NCBI GenBank assembly: GCA_950295325.1
Contig: OX485805.1
Coordinates: 4,216,501-4,280,500, forward strand
Length of the DNA: 64,000 bases
Direction of reading: 5' to 3'
From: Polytrichum commune
Lineage: Eukaryota; Streptophyta; Polytrichopsida; Polytrichales; Polytrichaceae
Shown here: positions 1 through 9,800 of the stretch, piece by piece
Layout: the number at the start of each line of letters is the position of its first letter
Position numbering within the stretch: position 1 is the stretch's first letter
Made by a program: the position numbers and the translations under genes
Notes under the pieces: generated by a model
Database searches by the model: none
Told to the model about the DNA's origin: nothing
What the model saw: only the letters and a program-made list of their open reading frames with translations

Positions 1-506
1 GCCATTAAAATACTTGACAAAAAAATATTTGCCCTACACAAATCTATATGCGGCCTATCATAATGTATATCAAACGTTGTCACACAACTATCACATGACA
101 TGTTCAACATAGAAACATTCTCACTAAAAAAATTGCGTACATTGCATGTATTGGTGAACAACTCATTAATGCCCTCAATGACAAAGGAAGACTTGGAAAG
201 ATATACAAATAATTAGTACAACATATACTTGCGAAGCACAACACCTAACATGTATCTCACATCATGATTGTACATGCTCATGAATCACAAGAACCCTATT
301 TTCACTCAAAACAACAAGTGGAACCCACCTCAAAAGCACACTTGAAGCATTCCCCCTCGGCCCTACGCCACTAGAAACACAATGGATGCTACAAGCAAGA
401 AATATACCAACATTAACCCCAACACTATCACAATATCTATACAAAATTAATATTACATAATACATTTGAACTAAAACAAATAACACTCCCCAATGGAACA
501 CACGAA

Positions 507-695
507 ATGAGCAATGATGAATTCAAACATTATTACAACACACCAACAAAAATAAAGAAAATTGCATTAGAGTATGCTAGAACACTCTTTTGTGAACCCT
601 CATGCCACAATCATTGTACAAGCCAATGCCTAACACACGCGGCACCAAACACCCTGAAAAATGAATATAAAATACAAACCATAACATACACATAA
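507..695 (+). pseudogene. Cys/His-cluster segment of the retroelement polyprotein
   Basis: This is an open segment of 62 codons within the decayed element. It contains a compact Cys/His cluster (CEPSCHNHCTSQC) that could bind one zinc ion. The frame stays open upstream through a segment with LKQITLPNGTHE, so the ATG at 507 is probably internal to a larger polyprotein and not a start. It is followed by proline-rich and C-rich DNA (700-775) and then by the next open segment. I do not recognise this cluster as a named family. Confidence 0.5.
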
Positions 696-759
696 GACCA
701 CAAGAACACCCCACCTACCCCCCCACCTCCACCACCATTAGAACATCCCACCCCCCCCC

Positions 760-1321
760 CCTACATCCTCGAAGATCCAACACACCTCCCAATACACAAC
801 ATACTAAACGACTGCCCCAGCACATACAAAGACGAATACAAAATCATGAAAATGTTTACGTCTTACCTATGCCAATGGACACTCCCAAATGAAACAATTT
901 ACAACAAATGGCTACCCCAAAGAGATTTGTTTCCTTGGAATGGTCAAAACACCATAACCCATAACATACTACTCCTCACGCAATATTACACCTGAAAACA
1001 ACACCAACATTTCACTTACATAATAATCACAAACTTCCATCAAGATCAAATAAAAAACACCAAAATCATTCTCCCACCACAAACCATACCCTTGTGTCAC
1101 ATTCACATCAACAAATGCAACTCAGAAGATGACATCACATACACACAAAGCACCATCCAAACCCGACACGATACCGCACACATCTATGACAACACTGGCC
1201 GACATCTGACTACCATCCCTAAACTAAGACTAAAATGGCTATGGGACCAATACCACTTAGCACTAAATAGACCACATAACCTTGAGCCCCCTACCCAACC
1301 ATTCGAAATAGAAGTAGCATG
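760..1321 (+). pseudogene. N-terminal part of the PCIF1-like region of the element
   Basis: One frame runs from about 760 to 1321 with a single internal TGA (near 994) and ends at a TGA that probably replaces a Trp codon. Visible landmarks are MFTSYLCQWTLP, NKWLPQRDLFPW, CHIHINKCNSEDD and LKWLWDQYHLALN. It leads, after further breaks, into the PCIF1-like core, and its position fits the helical region that precedes the methyltransferase core in PCIF1 proteins. That assignment rests on position and on the downstream core. The segment alone is not diagnostic. Confidence 0.45.
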
Positions 1322-1374
1322 ATTACACCAAAGATATAAATGTTAAACTCCTAAAAATGACCCCCCTAAAATTC

Positions 1375-1795
1375 TCGCAATACACACTCCCAAACACCAT
1401 CCTTGAACACCTTACAAGTTCATTCCAAACAACACGCTCATATTTTTCATCACCAGTGACATGCTTTACCTCACTCAACAATTCTACTCCCCATTTCCTA
1501 GAGATATAGTATTCGGATCATTAGAAAAACGTTCCAACAAGAATGGCAAGGCAAAGGATACGCACACCCACATACAGAAACCAAAGCCCAACAAACCCTC
1601 CACTGGGCACGCCTTGCAGTAAAAAACGACCCAAACTTTGTCACAATACTAGTAGCAGTAGATGAAAATTGGTATAACAACCTTAACCCCCACATTGGAC
1701 CCTTCCCAAATTCGCATGTAATCACACACTTCAAAGTTGACACCATCATCTACGAAGAACTAACAATCCCCCCCCCCCCCCGAATTGTGAATTGA
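1375..1795 (+). pseudogene. PCIF1-like methyltransferase-fold core, catalytic motif altered
   Basis: Three frame pieces read in order: one with LPNTILEHL, then YFSSPVTC (about 1438-1461); one with FYSPFPRD and VFGSL (about 1480-1530); and one with GKGYAHPH, NWYNNL and GPFPNSHVITHF (about 1533-1790). The order and spacing match the core of PCIF1-type N6-adenosine methyltransferases. In that family a hydrophobic helix leads to an SPLNC-like motif, an FPDTD-like motif, FGS and then the catalytic NPPF. Here the NPPF position reads AHPH, so even an unbroken copy would probably lack adenine-N6 chemistry or have changed it. A poly-C run (about 1769-1780) ends the segment. A profile search of the pieces against PF12237 would decide the assignment. 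Confidence 0.5.
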
Positions 1796-1939
1796 ACTTA
1801 GAACAGAAAGCCGTGCCATCCATATACTACAAAAATCGTACACCACAAAAACACGCCCATTGGATCACATGAATATACCCAACAAATGAACGACATCGCC
1901 AACACCCTACAAATCCCTGCAATGTTCAACCAAGTTGCA

Positions 1940-2070
1940 CCGCCCATCAATGGCCACCCCAGTAAACTGCAATACAAAATGGGTTGAACAGGCATACACA
2001 CTAGCCAAACAAGGACGTGAACTAGATCTCATAAACGCCGCAACACCATAAGATTACGCACACCCTACAC
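1940..2070 (+). pseudogene. RNase H C-terminal remnant
   Basis: The frame at about 1980-2040 reads EQAYTLAKQGREL, matching the last motif of the RNase H fold in retroelements (usually ADxLAKxG). The residue corresponding to the catalytic Asp reads Tyr, a one-base change (GAC to TAC). Directly upstream the same frame reads TPVNCNTKW, with no room for the first three catalytic motifs. The RNase H core therefore appears deleted in this copy. Confidence 0.5.
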
Positions 2071-2102
2071 CATATTACTTCCAAAAAGATTGGTGGCACT
2101 CC

Positions 2103-2315
2103 ATGCAAGAGACACCAGACAAAGGACTCATTAAACACCTCGGAAAACACATCCTCAAACACGACAAAGGACACAACTTAGCAATTATAGCATGTCAAAC
2201 ACACCAACTACACAATTGGCTTGAGAACGTGGACATTGATAAAATATTATCAAATGACTTCTGGACAAACCATGCTGTCATGGATAAACCAAAAATGTGT
2301 CTAATAAAATTATAA
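2103..2315 (+). pseudogene. Linker segment between RNase H and zinc finger of the element
   Basis: This segment stays open for 70 codons and continues the frame that starts in the RNase H remnant; one stop near 2049 lies between them. It contains FWTNHAVMDKPK and ends at a stop near 2313. The following frame reads TGQYMGHA and QLFFGRESYP up to the zinc finger, as expected for the spacer between RNase H and the CCHC finger of LINE-type polyproteins. No independent function is visible. Confidence 0.45.
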
Positions 2316-2377
2316 ACTGGACAATATATGGGTCATGCCCCAAAACAACTCTTCTTTGGTAGAGAATCCTACCCATA

Positions 2378-2500
2378 AAAAATGTGCCCTATCTGCAACT
2401 CATTAGAGGCGGATACATGGTTACATGTACTATTTAAATGCAAACAACAACACATCCATGCACTAATAACAAAAAGACACAATAAAACCATATGAAAAAT
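2378..2500 (+). pseudogene. CCHC zinc finger of the retroelement
   Basis: The reading CPICNSLEADTWLHVLFKC (starting at 2385) gives C-x2-C-x9-H-x4-C. This is the zinc-knuckle pattern at the C-terminus of many non-LTR retrotransposons (zf-RVT type, and the CCHC motif before the endonuclease of R2-type elements). A stop (TAA near 2375) precedes it and another follows near 2490, so it is now isolated from its neighbours. Confidence 0.62.
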
Positions 2501-2604
2501 ACGTAGACTCATTCTATCAACTAAAATATCAAGACACTATACACTTATGAATGCAAGAATGCATAATGAACTAGCTCAAGAAAACACAATGCCACCATGG
2601 CTAC

Positions 2605-3058
2605 TGCCGTGCACATGTGGTGCCCAAAGATGTCATTGTTTTGCCAAGCTTAAACCTGACATACTATGCGTCATTGGCCACCCGTATGACCATTCTCCAC
2701 CAATAACCCTTGCACTAGAACTCACCATATAATTTATAGAATTTACATATTGTAATGATAGATTTGCTGCAAAAACCCTTGATAGGAAAACCACGAAATA
2801 CCAACCGCTCATCAACAACATTATAACAAAGGGGTGGAACGTAGCCCCACTCAAGATATTGGTCGTAGGTGCAAGGGCCACAACACACATCCCATCAATG
2901 AACAAACTAGAAACAATACTTAAACTCCGTATCATGAAAATCAAAAGTACATTCAAACAAATTAACATAATTGCCACACAATATGCACACTCAATACTAG
3001 TTCATAAACGTAGACTAGAGAACCGACAACCTATCACAAACCTCCAAGACTTACCATA
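2605..3058 (+). pseudogene. Restriction-like endonuclease (PD-(D/E)XK-like) C-terminal domain of the element
   Basis: Reading on from the finger: a Cys-rich turn (LPCTCGAQRCHC), then KPDIL (about 2652), IEFTYCNDRF (about 2740), KYQPLI, GW, VGARATTH, and a basic C-terminus ending at the TAA at 3057-3059. A KPD...E arrangement after a CCHC finger, followed by a KY...V-G-A-R segment, is the signature layout of the REL endonuclease in R2/NeSL-type non-LTR retrotransposons. One in-frame stop lies near 2730. REL-type elements are not the usual plant LINEs (L1 and RTE encode an APE endonuclease), which makes this copy notable. A structure-aware profile comparison would be the test. Confidence 0.55.
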
Positions 3059-3059
3059 A

Positions 3060-3337
3060 ACAAATAAATAAACTTACAACCCGCTCTAGCTTGACCCCTA
3101 GAGCAGTGCTATGCTTATTGGATGTCTTTTGGCTAAAGACGGTTACATGCTACCGGTTACCGATAACGATTATTATTTACTAAATATAATGTATACTCCC
3201 TGCAAAGGGTGAAGTAGTTTTACATCTAACGCCATTGCCCTAGGGCGTGGCCTAGGATGTTCTACAAACATACACTCTATCCACTCTGGCCCCCTCCATA
3301 GACCGGAGTTCTTCTTCTTCTTCTTCTTCTTCTTCTT
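3060..3337 (+). repeat. 3' noncoding tail of the element ending in (TTC)10
   Basis: After the last stop there are about 250 bp of noncoding DNA, then a pure TTC repeat at 3309-3337. Simple-sequence 3' tails are typical of many non-LTR elements, and this position fits the element's 3' end. A T/G-rich stretch and a short GT run (to about 3367) follow and may be part of the tail or of the target. Confidence 0.55.
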
Positions 3338-6300
3338 TTTGTTTTTTTTTGTTTTTGTGTGTGTGTGAGAGCATTACATAAGCTTGGTAAACACCATGAA
3401 TTAGTTTTCTGAAGGCTTGTTAAAATTCTTTGCATTTGGCAACACATGTGTGACCCTTCAATTGCAAGACCGTTGACTAGTTGTTGTTAAATTTTGTAAT
3501 CGAAGTGCATCCATGGAGTTCATACTGGACTGCAAGGCCATTGGCTCCATTTTAGTGAATGACTTGGAATAGAGTCTATTGAGTAAGGTCTGCAAGGTGT
3601 GATTCCTTGGTTCAAATCGTTATCTTGGTTTGTGTGTTAAATTGTTATTGCATTTCCGAGTCAAGCTATTGTCTTGTTGTGTTTGTATTGGAATGCATGT
3701 GGCAGTGACGCCCTTGGTATTGAAGTCTACGTGTGATCAAATTCATTCGGCCGGTAAGGAGTCTCGTTGGTTATGAAACGACAATGGCTTGAGTCAAGAT
3801 CTCTCTATCGTAGACATGCTACTAACCGTGCAGCACCACTTACCGTGCATGTCACGATACTCCACCATGCCACTTACCGTGTACTTATAATCTTGGCCGT
3901 CAAATTATATCACATGCAATCTCAACCGTCCGATGTCTCTCAAACTCAATCATGACCACGCCAATGACCTAAAACATCACTGTGAACTCACACTCATCAT
4001 GGAGTTTCCTTCAGTCGAATCACATAGCAAGGTGTAGATGTAGCAATTTGATGAAGATGAAAAGAGCAGACCTTGCCAGGGCCAAAAAAGAAGCAAAAAT
4101 TTCAACAACAACTTGAGAAGAAAATGGCTACACAAGTCAAAAGGACAATATCAAAACCTCATCAATTTCCTATGCCTACAAAGAAGAGGGCAACATTTGT
4201 AGCTCCTTTAGTGAAACCTAACATGCACGGTTAGTGAATGGCACATTGATCACACATTGATGCATATAGTTGTGAACTTGATTGTAGAAAGGTTACAACT
4301 TTTCAAATACAATTGTCATTTCATTTTACCACAATACTCTCATCTCATTTACTAATTACAAAATTTAATTTTTTTTTAAAAAGGTTTAACCCACCTTGTG
4401 GAAAACCATTTGAAACCCAAATATGCACGGTTAGTAGCATGTCTACGATATGGGTGTAGGAAGGAGATCATTCTACTTTGAAGAGGATGGCATGAAGTGC
4501 AAACACACAAGTGAGAAATGGTATCTAAAGGCTCGTTATAGAAAATAGTGCGGGCTCTAAAAACCCATTATGGCCCTTATTAATAGGACTATTCAATGTA
4601 ATACAAGATAGAGTTACGATGGAAGAAAGATCATCCATCCAACGATTGGTGAAGAACCATGGGAAAAAGACAAGGTGAACAATTAGTTTGCAGGAAAATT
4701 AAAAAAATATTAATAAAAGAAGAAGGAGTTAATGACTTGAGAACAAGGTGGCTCAAACCCAAGGCTTCAATGCAGATCCCATGGGGACTCCGAGGCTGGA
4801 ATGGTACTCAAATGGGTGACCTTCCTAGCATTTCATTTCTAGTGCACTCTACCACCTATAATCCACCCAATCATAGTGGGAGTATTTGTGTGAATTGGAT
4901 ATTTTCAACCAACCCATGTGGGAACTTAGGACCTTGCCCTTGGATGAGATAGGTGTTAGCCGGCTTATCCGCACCCATTCAAGGTGTTTACCTTTAAAGG
5001 AGACAATAGTCATCAAGGGTCTTCTGATTCTCGTAATGCATGTTTTGCGATTACATACGGATAAAGACCTACTCGAAAATGAAACAACACCATAATTCAC
5101 GCCAGTGGCAACATCAAAGTTGAGACCATTTGATCGCATCACCGACTCTTGCAGAGATCCATGTTGAAAGAACAATGTCGTTGAGAGTTACTCTTTGTTC
5201 CAAGGAGACACTCTTTGAATGTTGAGGGAATAGACTAAGGCAAGGGGGTGTGTGACGAACTCAATATGAAATACATATTGAAATAGACATGGCTGAAGTT
5301 ACATCTTGTGCCTGCTTTTGGAGTCCAACATAAGAGGCTCATTCTTTGAATGACATTGGAGACCAAAATGTAATCGAAACCTTATCTTTCAGAATGTCTG
5401 TCAATTCTTTTGGGAAAACACAGTTTAAAATATACACTCCATAACCTCACAAAATCAGCCCAAAAACCCCATAGAATGCAGCAACAAAGAATGAGAGCAC
5501 AAAACATGAGTGAAGAATGAAAAGACAATGAGACTCCGAACTAATAAGTACCCCTTTGCAACTGAAATAGTGCTGCCAGAAGAAGAGGCTTGAGGAAAAG
5601 GGTAAGTTAAATGTATAACACCCATCACAAGAGACCGTCACAACCTCCAAAGCTCAAGTCCAACAAAAAAATGAACATACCGAACTAATACACCCGCCTT
5701 GATTACATTCAAACTCCTTTGCAAATTTGTTGTGATACCCAGTGTGCTCAACACTTGTAGCTTTGTCATGGGCATTTGAGTGCAATTTTGTGTAGATTGC
5801 AGGGTCGAACACCTAGTGAATGTTACCGCTCTCTTTTTCTTTTCAACACGCCTATGCAATAATCTAATTTTCTCTGTGTTGGCTATGTGGACGTCCAACG
5901 GTGTGTTTTCCTACCCAATGCCATTCTAGGCCCACCTAGCTACCATGTTTGCCTTGTATGCATTAGCGTGGGCCATAGGGGTAGCGAGCCAAACCAAACT
6001 AGCTGGGGAACGACAACAAGGTAACCCTTGCATGGATTTCTTTGCACAAAGATTGGCAATAATATACGAGACCCATGATAATTTCCACCACTGTATTTTT
6101 GGAGGGGGTGTGAACCTTTGACGCTAGATAATGTTATGTGGATTTGAAATTCACAAGTCACAAATTTCATAAAACCTCTATTGAAACTCGAACAAGACAG
6201 GACGTGGCATGCAATAGCAATTTGAATGAAGAGCGAGTTGTATGTAATTTCAAGATATGAGCGGTTCCGAATCCTCGCGATTCCTATGTAAACCTATGAG

Positions 6301-6840
6301 ACCATCGTGGATAAAGGGGTTCTAATAATAAACAATGTCCTTACTAGAGGCCGAGGGCCAAATCATACTCGTACGAATATTGCCATTTCGAAAGTCAAAC
6401 AGTAGTATGTATCAAAATAGACATTTACAGTCTACAGACAAAGAGTATATTTTAACTTGCGTTTTTCACATTCCTAACGGATGGGTTTCTGTACACGTTG
6501 AAGACACTTTTGACAAGAGCCAATTGTTCATCCAAAATCTTTGATACAGAAGATAACTAAAATTCATCCACAATATTCGTACAGCGCGAATGATAAATTA
6601 TGGTCATCTAAAATCGTTGTTCTCTTTCACAATCTTCTTACTGCATAGATGAGAAATGTCGTTCATCCACTCGTCTTGATCATCCACAACATTGGTTCTA
6701 CATAGATGAAAATATATATTCATCCATAATCTTCGTACATATAAGTATAGTTCATTCCGAGATTCGTCGTTTTCATCCACTGGAGAGGCTCCGGTAAGGA
6801 TAACACTAAACCTTGGAGATTGAAGAAGCTCCCGCTGGCT
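3338..6840. other. Intergenic region upstream of AspRS
   Basis: I see no gene here. Short open frames lack conserved motifs and have AT-rich intergenic composition. Contents: a 27-bp perfect inverted repeat (3806-3832 against 4424-4450) around a segment with further copies of its core; unique-looking DNA from 4.5 to 6.5 kb; and at 6545-6780 loosely repeated units of the type TTCATCCACAATNTTCGT just upstream of AspRS. No convincing TATA box was found for the AspRS gene. Confidence 0.6.
3806..4450. repeat. Fold-back segment with 27-bp perfect inverted ends
   Basis: Bases 3806-3832 (containing TAGACATGCTACTAACCGTG) are an exact reverse complement of 4424-4450. The core ACCGTGCATG recurs inside (near 3845 and, inverted, near 4224). 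Together they make a 645-bp segment able to fold back. No clear target-site duplication flanks it, so a non-autonomous DNA transposon is only one possibility. Confidence 0.45.
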
Positions 6841-9800
6841 ATGGCGTCCGAGAGCTTGACGCGCACTGCCATGGCCATGGCAGCCAGGCTGGGGTCACCA
6901 CGGGCGCACGCCCTGACGCTCCTGAGATGCCCTTGCGTGCAGAAACCTTGGAGCCGTCCTCAAATTCGAGGTCCAACAAGGCCAAAATGGCAGAGAATGC
7001 TGCACACATCCCCCCCTGCTCTGCTTTCCAAACCCTACTCGCTCCCCATTCTGAGCGCAGCTCAAGACATCGCGATTGCGAAGCCGAGGACTGATAGCGC
7101 CGGAGGGTTCAGTCTGGATGGCGAGTCGTTGGAGTTCATCAGTCGGACGCATGAGTGCGGGAAGCTGAGTGAGAAGGACGTAGGGGTTAGGGTTCGGCTG
7201 TGTGGATGGGTTGCGTCGCAACGGAGCCATGGTGCTGTGGCCTTTGTCAATATGCGGGATCACACTGGCATTGTGCAGGTATCATTTCCGAGAAAATTGG
7301 TGCAGAACTGGATTTCTGAATTGCATTCTGAATTTTGAGACAACACAAATTAAGGAAAAATCTCATGAAAGTCCTGCATTCATAATTGGCAAGTTAATAC
7401 TCCGCCCCTTCCCTTAAAAACATACACACATACACTCTACCCTCAATGTTAATTGCATGTGATCTGGAACAAACGCCGGGGTTTATAGATGTTCAAGAGA
7501 GCTGGATGGATTGGATTTCTGTTGAATTTCCGTAATGCTGTAAAATTGGAGTTCTGAAGGAGATTCCTGCATTTTTGAAATCTTGAGACGTCGAAAAAAT
7601 CTCATCAAATTCCTGCATTCATGATGGCAATTTAATCCCCGTCCACCCCTTACACACATACTCTACCCTCAGGGTTAATTGCACGTTATCTGGAACGTAT
7701 GCTGGGTTTTATAGATGCTCACGAGAGATGATTGGATTGGATTCCTGTAGAATATTTGTAATGCTGTAGAATTGGATTTCTGGAAAGATTCCTGCAATTA
7801 TAATTTTGCGACACGCCACTTAGCATTCAAAGGAAAAGTGCCATCAATGTCCTGCATTTCGACTGGCAAGTTAACCTCCCGTCCCTCCCCCTGATTTTTT
7901 ACATGCATAAACCCTACCTGGAGGGTTAAGTACACAATGTGTGGAAGAAAGGCCGGGTTTTGTAGATGCTCATGAGAGGTGGATGGATTCGGTTTATGTG
8001 GAATTTCTGGAATCCTGTAGGATTGAATTTGCGAAAGAGGTTCCTGCATTTGTAACCGAGCTTACGTCACTTAGCATTCACGAAAAGAAAAGAAAAGAAA
8101 AGAAAAAGGCTCATCAAAGTACTGCATTCATGGTGTCCAGCTAACACCCTCCCCTTTTAAAAAAACATACACAAACACTCTATTTTCGGGATTAATTGCA
8201 CACTATCTGGAACAAATGCTGGTCTTTATAGATGTTGACGAGAGATGGATGGATTGGATTTCTGTAGAATTTCTACAATGCTGTAAAATTGGATCTCTCA
8301 AAGCATTTTCTTGCATTCTTAATTATGAGATGATGTTACATAGCATTCGCAACCAAAGAAAAAGTCTCATTAAAGTCCTGCATTCGTAGTGGCCAGTTAA
8401 CCCCTGCCCCTCCCCCTGAAAGCACACACACAGAGTTACTCTCTCTACCTCAGGGTTAATTGCAAATTGTCTGGAACAAACACCAGGTTTTATGTATGTT
8501 CATGAGAGATGAAAGGATTGGATTTCTGTAGAATTTCTGTTGAATTTTTGTAATTCTATGAAATTAGAATTCTGAAAGTAGATTTCTGCATTCTTGATGT
8601 TGAGACGACACCATTTAGCATCCACAGTTTTAGAAAAGTCTCATCAAAGACCTGCATTTACACTGACAAGTTAACACCCCATCCCTCCCTTTAAGACACA
8701 CAGACACAGACACACACACTCTACCTTCAGGGTTAATTGCACGTTCTCTGGAACAAATGCCAGGTTTGATATTTGTTCTAGTGTGAGAAGGAAGGCGATT
8801 TTGTTTCTGGAATCGAAGTTTTATGATTGAAGGCAATCGATCATTATTTCTTCTTTCAATCCCTGTGCGGTCTGAAATGTGGCAGGTCACTTCAGATCCC
8901 GTGAATTTTCCAGAAGGTCACGAGATTGCAGAGCACGTGCGAATTGAGTATGTGGTGGTGGTTGAGGGAACTGTGCGGCTCCGACCAAAGGAGGTTGTGA
9001 ATTCACGAATGGCAACAGGCGCTGTTGAGGTGAGATTCCAGAACTTGTAATTTTGAACGGGTTGGTAGTAATTGGGAGAAGCTAATGTACGAAATCCTCA
9101 CTTGAGCAATTAGCAATGTGTGTATCACATCACTTTAACATAAGGAATCATAGAGCATGCTATATTGTTAGTGAACATTGCTCTGCATTGTTCTTGTTCA
9201 AGATTGATCTCCTGCACGACAGTGACTTAATTGCATGAATTTTTTAAATTCTGCTAGTTGAAGAAATTGTTTGTTCTTAAGGATATCATCTCCATTTATG
9301 ACGCTAGTTAATGGGAATGACATTGTTAATACCACTATGCTTTCAGTGCGTCCTACAAAATGTATGATTCACGGTTTCTTACCACAGTATAATTGAGAAG
9401 GTGTGGTGTGGTTGAAGAAAATCGGGTGGGATCTATGCAGATTGTTGCAGAAAGTGTTCAGGTCTTGAACAAAGTGGGGTTGGCACTGCCATTCTTGGTG
9501 ACACTTGCTGAGGATAATAAAGAACTGCCTTCCGAAGAAGTTCGCCTCAGGTTTTAAATCTTGCATTGGATGCACAGGACTAAAGTAACTTAAATGCAAG
9601 TCACTTCAAACTAAATGAATGCATTTGCTCTTAGGACTTGTGGAAATGAAATGTTCTCACTTAGTCTAAACGTTCATTTTCTAAACGTCCTTTGAGGAGG
9701 ATACAGACACATGAATGGAGGGCAGGTGGCTGGTGTGCATGCAGGTATCGGCACCTTGACTTAAGGAGAGTGCAGATGAACACCAATTTGCGAATGCGGC

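Follow-up and report, generated by a model that had tools for sequence, protein, structure and literature searches.

A PCIF1-like domain in a recently mobile and probably dual-endonuclease LINE family of the moss Polytrichum commune

What kind of element lies at the start of a 64,000-nucleotide window from Polytrichum commune (assembly GCA_950295325.1, contig OX485805.1, positions 4,216,501 to 4,280,500 of the forward strand), where retrotransposon motifs stand beside pieces that resemble PCIF1, an mRNA cap m6Am methyltransferase? Throughout, the window is this whole stretch, and the element occupies its positions 1 to 3337. An initial annotation made from the letters had proposed the relic of a long interspersed nuclear element (LINE) of R2/NeSL type, carrying a PCIF1-like domain, an RNase H, a CCHC finger and a restriction-enzyme-like (REL) nuclease. 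The analysis presented here shows that the window opens with what is left of a very long non-LTR (long terminal repeat) retrotransposon, namely its decayed 3' half. For the explanation as a whole, namely a relic of a dual-endonuclease LINE with a PCIF1-like domain from a family that has moved recently, we would put the probability at roughly three in four.

When positions 1-3337 were translated in six frames for motif reading, every motif listed by the initial annotation was located on the plus strand: IGEQLINALND..GRLGKIY near 150-210, the Cys/His cluster CEPSCHNHCTSQCLTH near 586-640 (present in most sister rows as well), and SPVTC, PFPRD, FGSL and NWY, in that order but in different frames, within ~1450-1680. 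These motifs are not chance occurrences, because a tblastn alignment pairs this part of the window with an intact LINE frame of 2,919 residues elsewhere in the assembly, over residues 1742-2916 of that frame (E 3e-116 and 2e-111; sister copy L021, our reference throughout), and because window 1000-3337, used as a DNA query, finds at least 64 matches, the window itself counted, in a genome of 407.8 Mb (64 contigs, seven of which hold about 406 Mb). Top identity among these DNA matches is 88-92%, one 39-base match aside. The proposal of a LINE relic thus holds, and intact copies, sought in the same genome as had been advised, exist as open frames of 2,919 and 2,924 residues. The parts of the copy are these, with negative coordinates lying left of the window:

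1..3337, + strand: decayed 3' half of a probable dual-endonuclease LINE copy; tblastn with the L021 frame places reference residues 1328-2916 at window -1209 to 3035
4..129, + strand: stretch directly behind the reverse transcriptase (RT) domain, 62% identical to reference 1742-1783
129..1225, + strand: linker from RT to PCIF1-like domain, with the Cys cluster near 586-640 and no Pfam family in its pieces
1225..1795, + strand: PCIF1-like domain with frameshifts and stops, named by alignment to sisters that match PCIF1_WW; YAHPHT at the NPPF position, 1559-1576
1971..2051, + strand: RNase H tail with LAKQG at 2001-2015; near 1982-1985 is the junction of the deletion that removed the core; RNase_H is matched in sisters
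2385..2441, + strand: CCHC finger, C-x2-C-x9-H-x4-C, its four residues invariant in 15 sister copies
2652..2888, + strand: REL-like stretch, with KPD at 2652-2660, a stop codon at 2730-2732, IEF at 2736-2744 and GARATTH at 2868-2888
3060..3309, + strand: 3' untranslated end, the common 3' end of the copies, with a terminal hairpin at ~3283-3309
3310..3337, + strand: TTC-repeat tail belonging to the element, a tail found in 10 of 19 copies with the common end

About 174 codons (reference residues 2388-2561) are missing from the window copy at the junction near 1982-1985. Many sister DNA matches split at query 983-986 with ~500 extra bases between the two parts, and since the sisters hold these bases at the same break, the change is a deletion in the window copy. 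Consequently the copy keeps the tail of RNase H but not its core, so that the RNase H of the initial annotation is borne out in the sisters and survives here as a remnant. Nine window pieces scanned against Pfam gave no RNase H match, and PCIF1_WW appeared in one of the nine at E 0.046, below its cut-off; the domain names that we use for window pieces rest on alignment to the sister copies.

To the left, comparison of the flank (locus L009) with seven sister copies, about 10 kb each, shows homology continuing through and past the window's edge. Reference residues 1328-2251, RT included, align to window -1209..1523, so the copy extends ~1.2 kb left of the window and the RT that had been expected upstream is present by alignment. 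The copy's own RT piece gave no RT profile match (one piece scanned, L009:8602-8970), and its APE (apurinic/apyrimidinic) endonuclease part was not found within 10 kb left of the window. Also upstream of the window copy, at L009 6866-7090 (window -3035 to -2811), lies another REL-like fragment, separate and more divergent, with 36% identity to reference residues 2748-2819 (E 7e-5). By Kimura two-parameter distance the window copy stands 0.12-0.14 from four of the five near sisters measured and 0.16 from the fifth, a set that excludes a 665-base match at 92% identity; judged by divergence, it is older than the recently moved pair of copies discussed below.

The sister copies supply what the relic has lost. 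In them a first open reading frame, ORF1, precedes a single ORF2 frame that holds, in order, an APE endonuclease, the RT, the PCIF1-like domain, RNase H, the CCHC finger and a REL-like end. One frame of L022 reads Exo_endo_phos (E 0.059), RT (6.2e-30), PCIF1 (2.4e-11) and RNase H (3.3e-13). That of L021 reads APE as Exo_endo_phos_2 (2.8e-7), RT (9.1e-28) and PCIF1 (4.2e-13); the last piece of L021 was left out of the scan, and its RNase H, CCHC and REL-like parts are assigned by alignment to L022. RVT_1 is matched in three sisters, the two above and a relic (3.4e-24), RNase_H behind the RT in L014 (4.7e-12) as in L022, and Exo_endo_phos_2 exceeds its cut-off in L015 (1.3e-9) as in L021, with the APE motifs GDF and SDH retained in all five rows shown. 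This endonuclease before the RT was missed by the initial annotation, and it leaves the R2/NeSL assignment unsupported in the form proposed. The CCHC finger that it named stands on its four invariant residues, and of its REL nuclease the motifs endure, P, D, E and K..KY being fully conserved across 15 sister copies, while profile and fold support is absent; the REL assignment is accordingly one by motif.

ORF1 pieces matched no Pfam family over its cut-off, and the frame's first ~1,100 residues, being of low complexity, may be a leader sequence that is open by chance. Nor did any peptidase family appear in the scanned pieces of L021 (last piece excluded), L022 or ORF1, a search in which divergent forms could be missed. 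On the minus strand of L014, at 3278-3922, an ORF1-like stretch (24% identical, E 7e-12) lies upstream of a TTC-tailed sister copy, and near another sister copy, at L016 3-3398, there is an open frame of 1,132 residues that by eye looks like the polyprotein of a Gypsy-type LTR retrotransposon.

The identity of the PCIF1-like domain is carried by several lines of evidence. PCIF1_WW exceeds the Pfam cut-off in five of the six long sister pieces that include some of the domain (E 5e-9 to 4e-13; 5.3e-9, 1.9e-9 and 3.1e-10 in relic sisters), and the window pieces at 1375-1795, read as PCIF1-like from the outset, align to this region, with no other fold assigned. Genome-wide there are at least 150 PF12237 (PCIF1_WW) matches, these being the best 150 of 697 candidates and all over the family cut-off; at least 30 have an open frame of 1,000 residues or more (three with a stop inside the match), and five of these frames reach 2,625-2,924 residues. 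At all 20 loci examined the match lies inside the LINE frame, where adjacent reference residues align too; four of these loci came from the profile search (L018 being the same copy as L021) and sixteen were chosen, mostly for long frames, so the sample is not random. Two PF12237 matches, at C24:11558-11947 and C3:874345-874734, are equal in score and frame length and are possibly an assembly duplicate, C24 being a small contig.

When a profile of 16 copies (alignment A1) was compared with the PDB at E up to 10, two sequences were returned and both are PCIF1, the sole family matched. In reverse, an 85-residue PCIF1 fragment found at least 148 genome matches at E up to 1 among the best 150 of 216 candidates, with identities of 29-43% and a lowest E of 6e-4; many of them coincide in place with the PF12237 matches. 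Among the best 150 of 697 and the best 150 of 216 candidates, no host-like PCIF1 gene rose above the LINE-type matches (best 55.6 bits; reverse E 6e-4), a gene with short exons being one that such a search could miss. PF12237 had no match in 14 control genomes, a weak control since PCIF1 is not expected in most of them. A look for relatives in viral contigs gave 23 pattern matches, of which none was confirmed. Set against PCIF1 itself, the domain differs in being part of a LINE polyprotein, in showing no WW domain in the sister pieces scanned against Pfam, and in lacking NPPF, the catalytic motif of PCIF1 enzymes.

At the same time, a number of results weigh against our explanation. The APE of L022 falls under its cut-off, at the E 0.059 given above. 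The two PDB PCIF1 sequences were matched weakly, at E 0.0037 and 0.056, and L010:7395-8090, which holds the rear part of the PCIF1-like region only, had no Pfam match. The REL-like end fares worst: its PDB profile search gave a single and irrelevant match, a terpene synthase at E 0.58, and a single-sequence structural model of the window piece reached a mean pLDDT (predicted local distance difference test) of 37, with no PDB match at E <=0.001. In the 15-copy alignment the D-E gap of KPD..E is 26 residues, wider than the 12-14 of R2.

The family has been mobile recently. L022 and L024, on different contigs, hardly differ when aligned with their flanks (99.67% identity, 13,320 columns), and it is this identity over 13.3 kb together with target-site duplications from which we conclude recent movement. 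The longer copy spans 14,586 bp between two exact 11-bp duplications; the shorter, whose ORF2 has one stop, starts 1,266 bp further in, shows a 10-bp duplication and carries six additional bases at its 5' junction. The later start, combined with a target-site duplication, fits 5' truncation in target-primed reverse transcription.

A common 3' end was found in 19 of 23 copies tried, the other four giving none. A conserved stretch of 130 nt ends in the hairpin ACTCCGG..CCGGAGT (imperfect in L031 and L037), followed by a tail of TTC in ten copies and CTAT in nine, and then by DNA that differs from copy to copy, so that no single target site is seen. The consensus folds with 26 pairs, six of them kept through two-sided changes (-12.1 kcal/mol, covariation share -1.99), and a structured 3' RNA end is likely from this model. 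The stretch 'GGAATCGAACC' had raised the idea of a tRNA-like 3' untranslated region, which we rejected when ARAGORN returned 0 genes in the eight loci scanned.

Is the PCIF1-like domain maintained, and is it an enzyme? Ratios of nonsynonymous to synonymous change (dN/dS) were computed pairwise by the Nei-Gojobori method from copies without stops, for pairs with dS of 0.1-1.2. The median is 0.104 for the PCIF1-like domain (range 0.05-0.27; 62 pairs, 22 sequences), 0.092 for RNase H (0.03-0.32; 63 pairs, 26 sequences) and 0.102 for CCHC-REL (0.05-0.16; 37 pairs, 18 sequences), values drawn from non-independent pairs, with L018 and L021 being one copy entered twice, and without a neutral control. 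Two pairs each gave 0.085 for the post-RT stretch (five sequences), 0.051 for RT and 0.079 for APE (four sequences each). The PCIF1-like domain is therefore under purifying selection about as strict as that on RNase H and CCHC-REL. The position of its catalytic motif tells a different story. Aligned, weakly, to the second PDB chain, the domain shows H-P-H-N opposite NPPF, and all 31 rows that reach this position carry H-P-x in its place, always as [A/G/V]-H-P, with H, P or Y as the next letter in the 30 rows that extend to it. These come from 33 rows, of which L016 and the window row stop short, L018 equals L021, and L022 and L024 are nearly identical; the window's own YAHPHT (1559-1576) is read in another frame, open over 1502-1795. 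Since H-P-x is found in every row reaching the position, loss of NPPF is a property of the family rather than decay of a relic, and on this substitution normal methyltransferase activity is unlikely.

What, then, is this lineage? Dual-endonuclease LINEs are known mainly from green algae, and Dualen carries a cysteine protease, whereas no peptidase family was found in the scanned pieces of the moss family. With both APE and REL-like endonucleases in the sisters, the lineage appears Dualen/RandI-like rather than R2-like and is better called so, a likeness drawn by description. In the portions of the literature available to us, Dualen/RandI elements combine an APE, a restriction-like endonuclease (RLE) and RNase H, and non-A 3' repeats occur in eight of eight green-algal RandI families (PMC4640811, PMC3747384, PMC3636483). 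The moss family shares the APE before the RT, the RNase H behind it, the non-A 3' tail and, by motif alone, the restriction-like endonuclease at the C-terminus; it differs in its length of 14.6 kb, in a land-plant host rather than green algae such as Chlamydomonas, and in the PCIF1-like domain, which those portions do not name. Retrotransposons with C5 cytosine methyltransferases (DNMTs) exist, as far as the accessible part of that report goes (PMC5890265); a methyltransferase-type domain within a retrotransposon is common to both, but here it is PCIF1-like and its catalytic motif is lost. In titles and abstract openings of the best-ranked entries of a mostly open-access literature, we found no combination of PCIF1 or PF12237 with retrotransposon, retroelement or non-LTR, and likewise no report of RandI in Physcomitrium or of PCIF1 in moss. 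The LINE chassis is thus of a known kind, and the PCIF1-like domain is the new part.

Among other explanations, the one that survives best holds that the domain is an old, never-named part of the whole Dualen/RandI group, of which this family is an ordinary member. Its fixation in the copies sampled, with 20 of 20 PF12237 loci inside the LINE frame, speaks for this, and the available descriptions of the group, which name APE, RLE and RNase H and no such domain, speak against it; we consider it a serious possibility, albeit short of an even chance. Capture of a PCIF1-like fold by the element is plausible. We would tentatively go further and suggest that giant (~14.6 kb) moss dual-endonuclease LINEs acquired a fold of the cap-methyltransferase type, which then ceased to be catalytic and became an essential reader of their own capped RNA.

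For example, consider one round of movement as LINE biology would predict it. The ORF2 protein would attach to the hairpin at the 3' end of its RNA; once an endonuclease had nicked the target, the RT would copy the RNA from the nick, often getting no further than its 3' part, and RNase H would remove the template. The PCIF1-like domain, as a non-methylating, RNA-binding pseudo-enzyme, might recognise the element's own mRNA, either at its capped 5' end or along its body, and so help to hold a 14-kb template on the protein. That the domain keeps the mRNA on the ORF2 protein in this way is a speculative proposal, to which we give less than an even prospect.

A plainer alternative is that the domain, binding no ligand, serves simply as a structural spacer that separates the RT from RNase H. 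Loss of the catalytic motif and a location between two conserved enzymes would suit a spacer, but dN/dS about as low as in RNase H and CCHC-REL, and many invariant residues, would not, and we regard it as unlikely. More doubtful still is the idea that the domain is a working adenine methyltransferase whose active site has been remodelled, and that it would methylate the cap-proximal adenosine of the element's RNA, or the element's cDNA, and hide the element from the host; homology to PCIF1 and a median dN/dS of 0.10 argue for it, while the replacement of NPPF in 31 of 31 rows argues against, the motif pairing itself coming from one weak alignment. Finally, an element of R2/NeSL type that cuts with REL alone would explain an RT closest to R2 among PDB chains (E 1.7e-30 vs 2e-17 for LINE-1) and the CCHC finger and KPD..E at the C-terminus, but R2 is not known to have an APE, an RNase H or a PCIF1-like domain, all of which this family has along with no single target site seen, and the APE before the RT largely refutes it.

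Regardless of what the domain does, a land-plant family that has many copies and has moved recently offers many natural sequences for studying the swap of LINE endonucleases, a step that dual-endonuclease LINEs are thought to record, according to the accessible part of one report (PMC4640811). A conserved pseudo-methyltransferase in a retrotransposon also suggests a testable route by which an element might recognise its own RNA, and a capped-RNA reader, if true, would be a pseudo-enzyme module new to retrotransposons. In practical terms, annotation pipelines may tag such LINE copies as 'PCIF1 domain' host genes.

Other observations concern host genes. The genome encodes plant light-harvesting proteins, one of which is nearest, among single-domain PDB chains, to the Physcomitrium structures 7xqp and 8htu (363 bits, with 351 or less for the others shown); the two-domain chain 9vfj has a higher total score. 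Further into the window, ~6751-7338 holds an open frame of 195 residues that resembles the N-terminal portion encoded by an aminoacyl-tRNA synthetase gene. Elsewhere, at C5:1751760-1846160, fourteen Chloroa_b-bind matches of equal score are spread over both strands within ~95 kb and form a cluster of nearly identical light-harvesting complex (LHC) genes.

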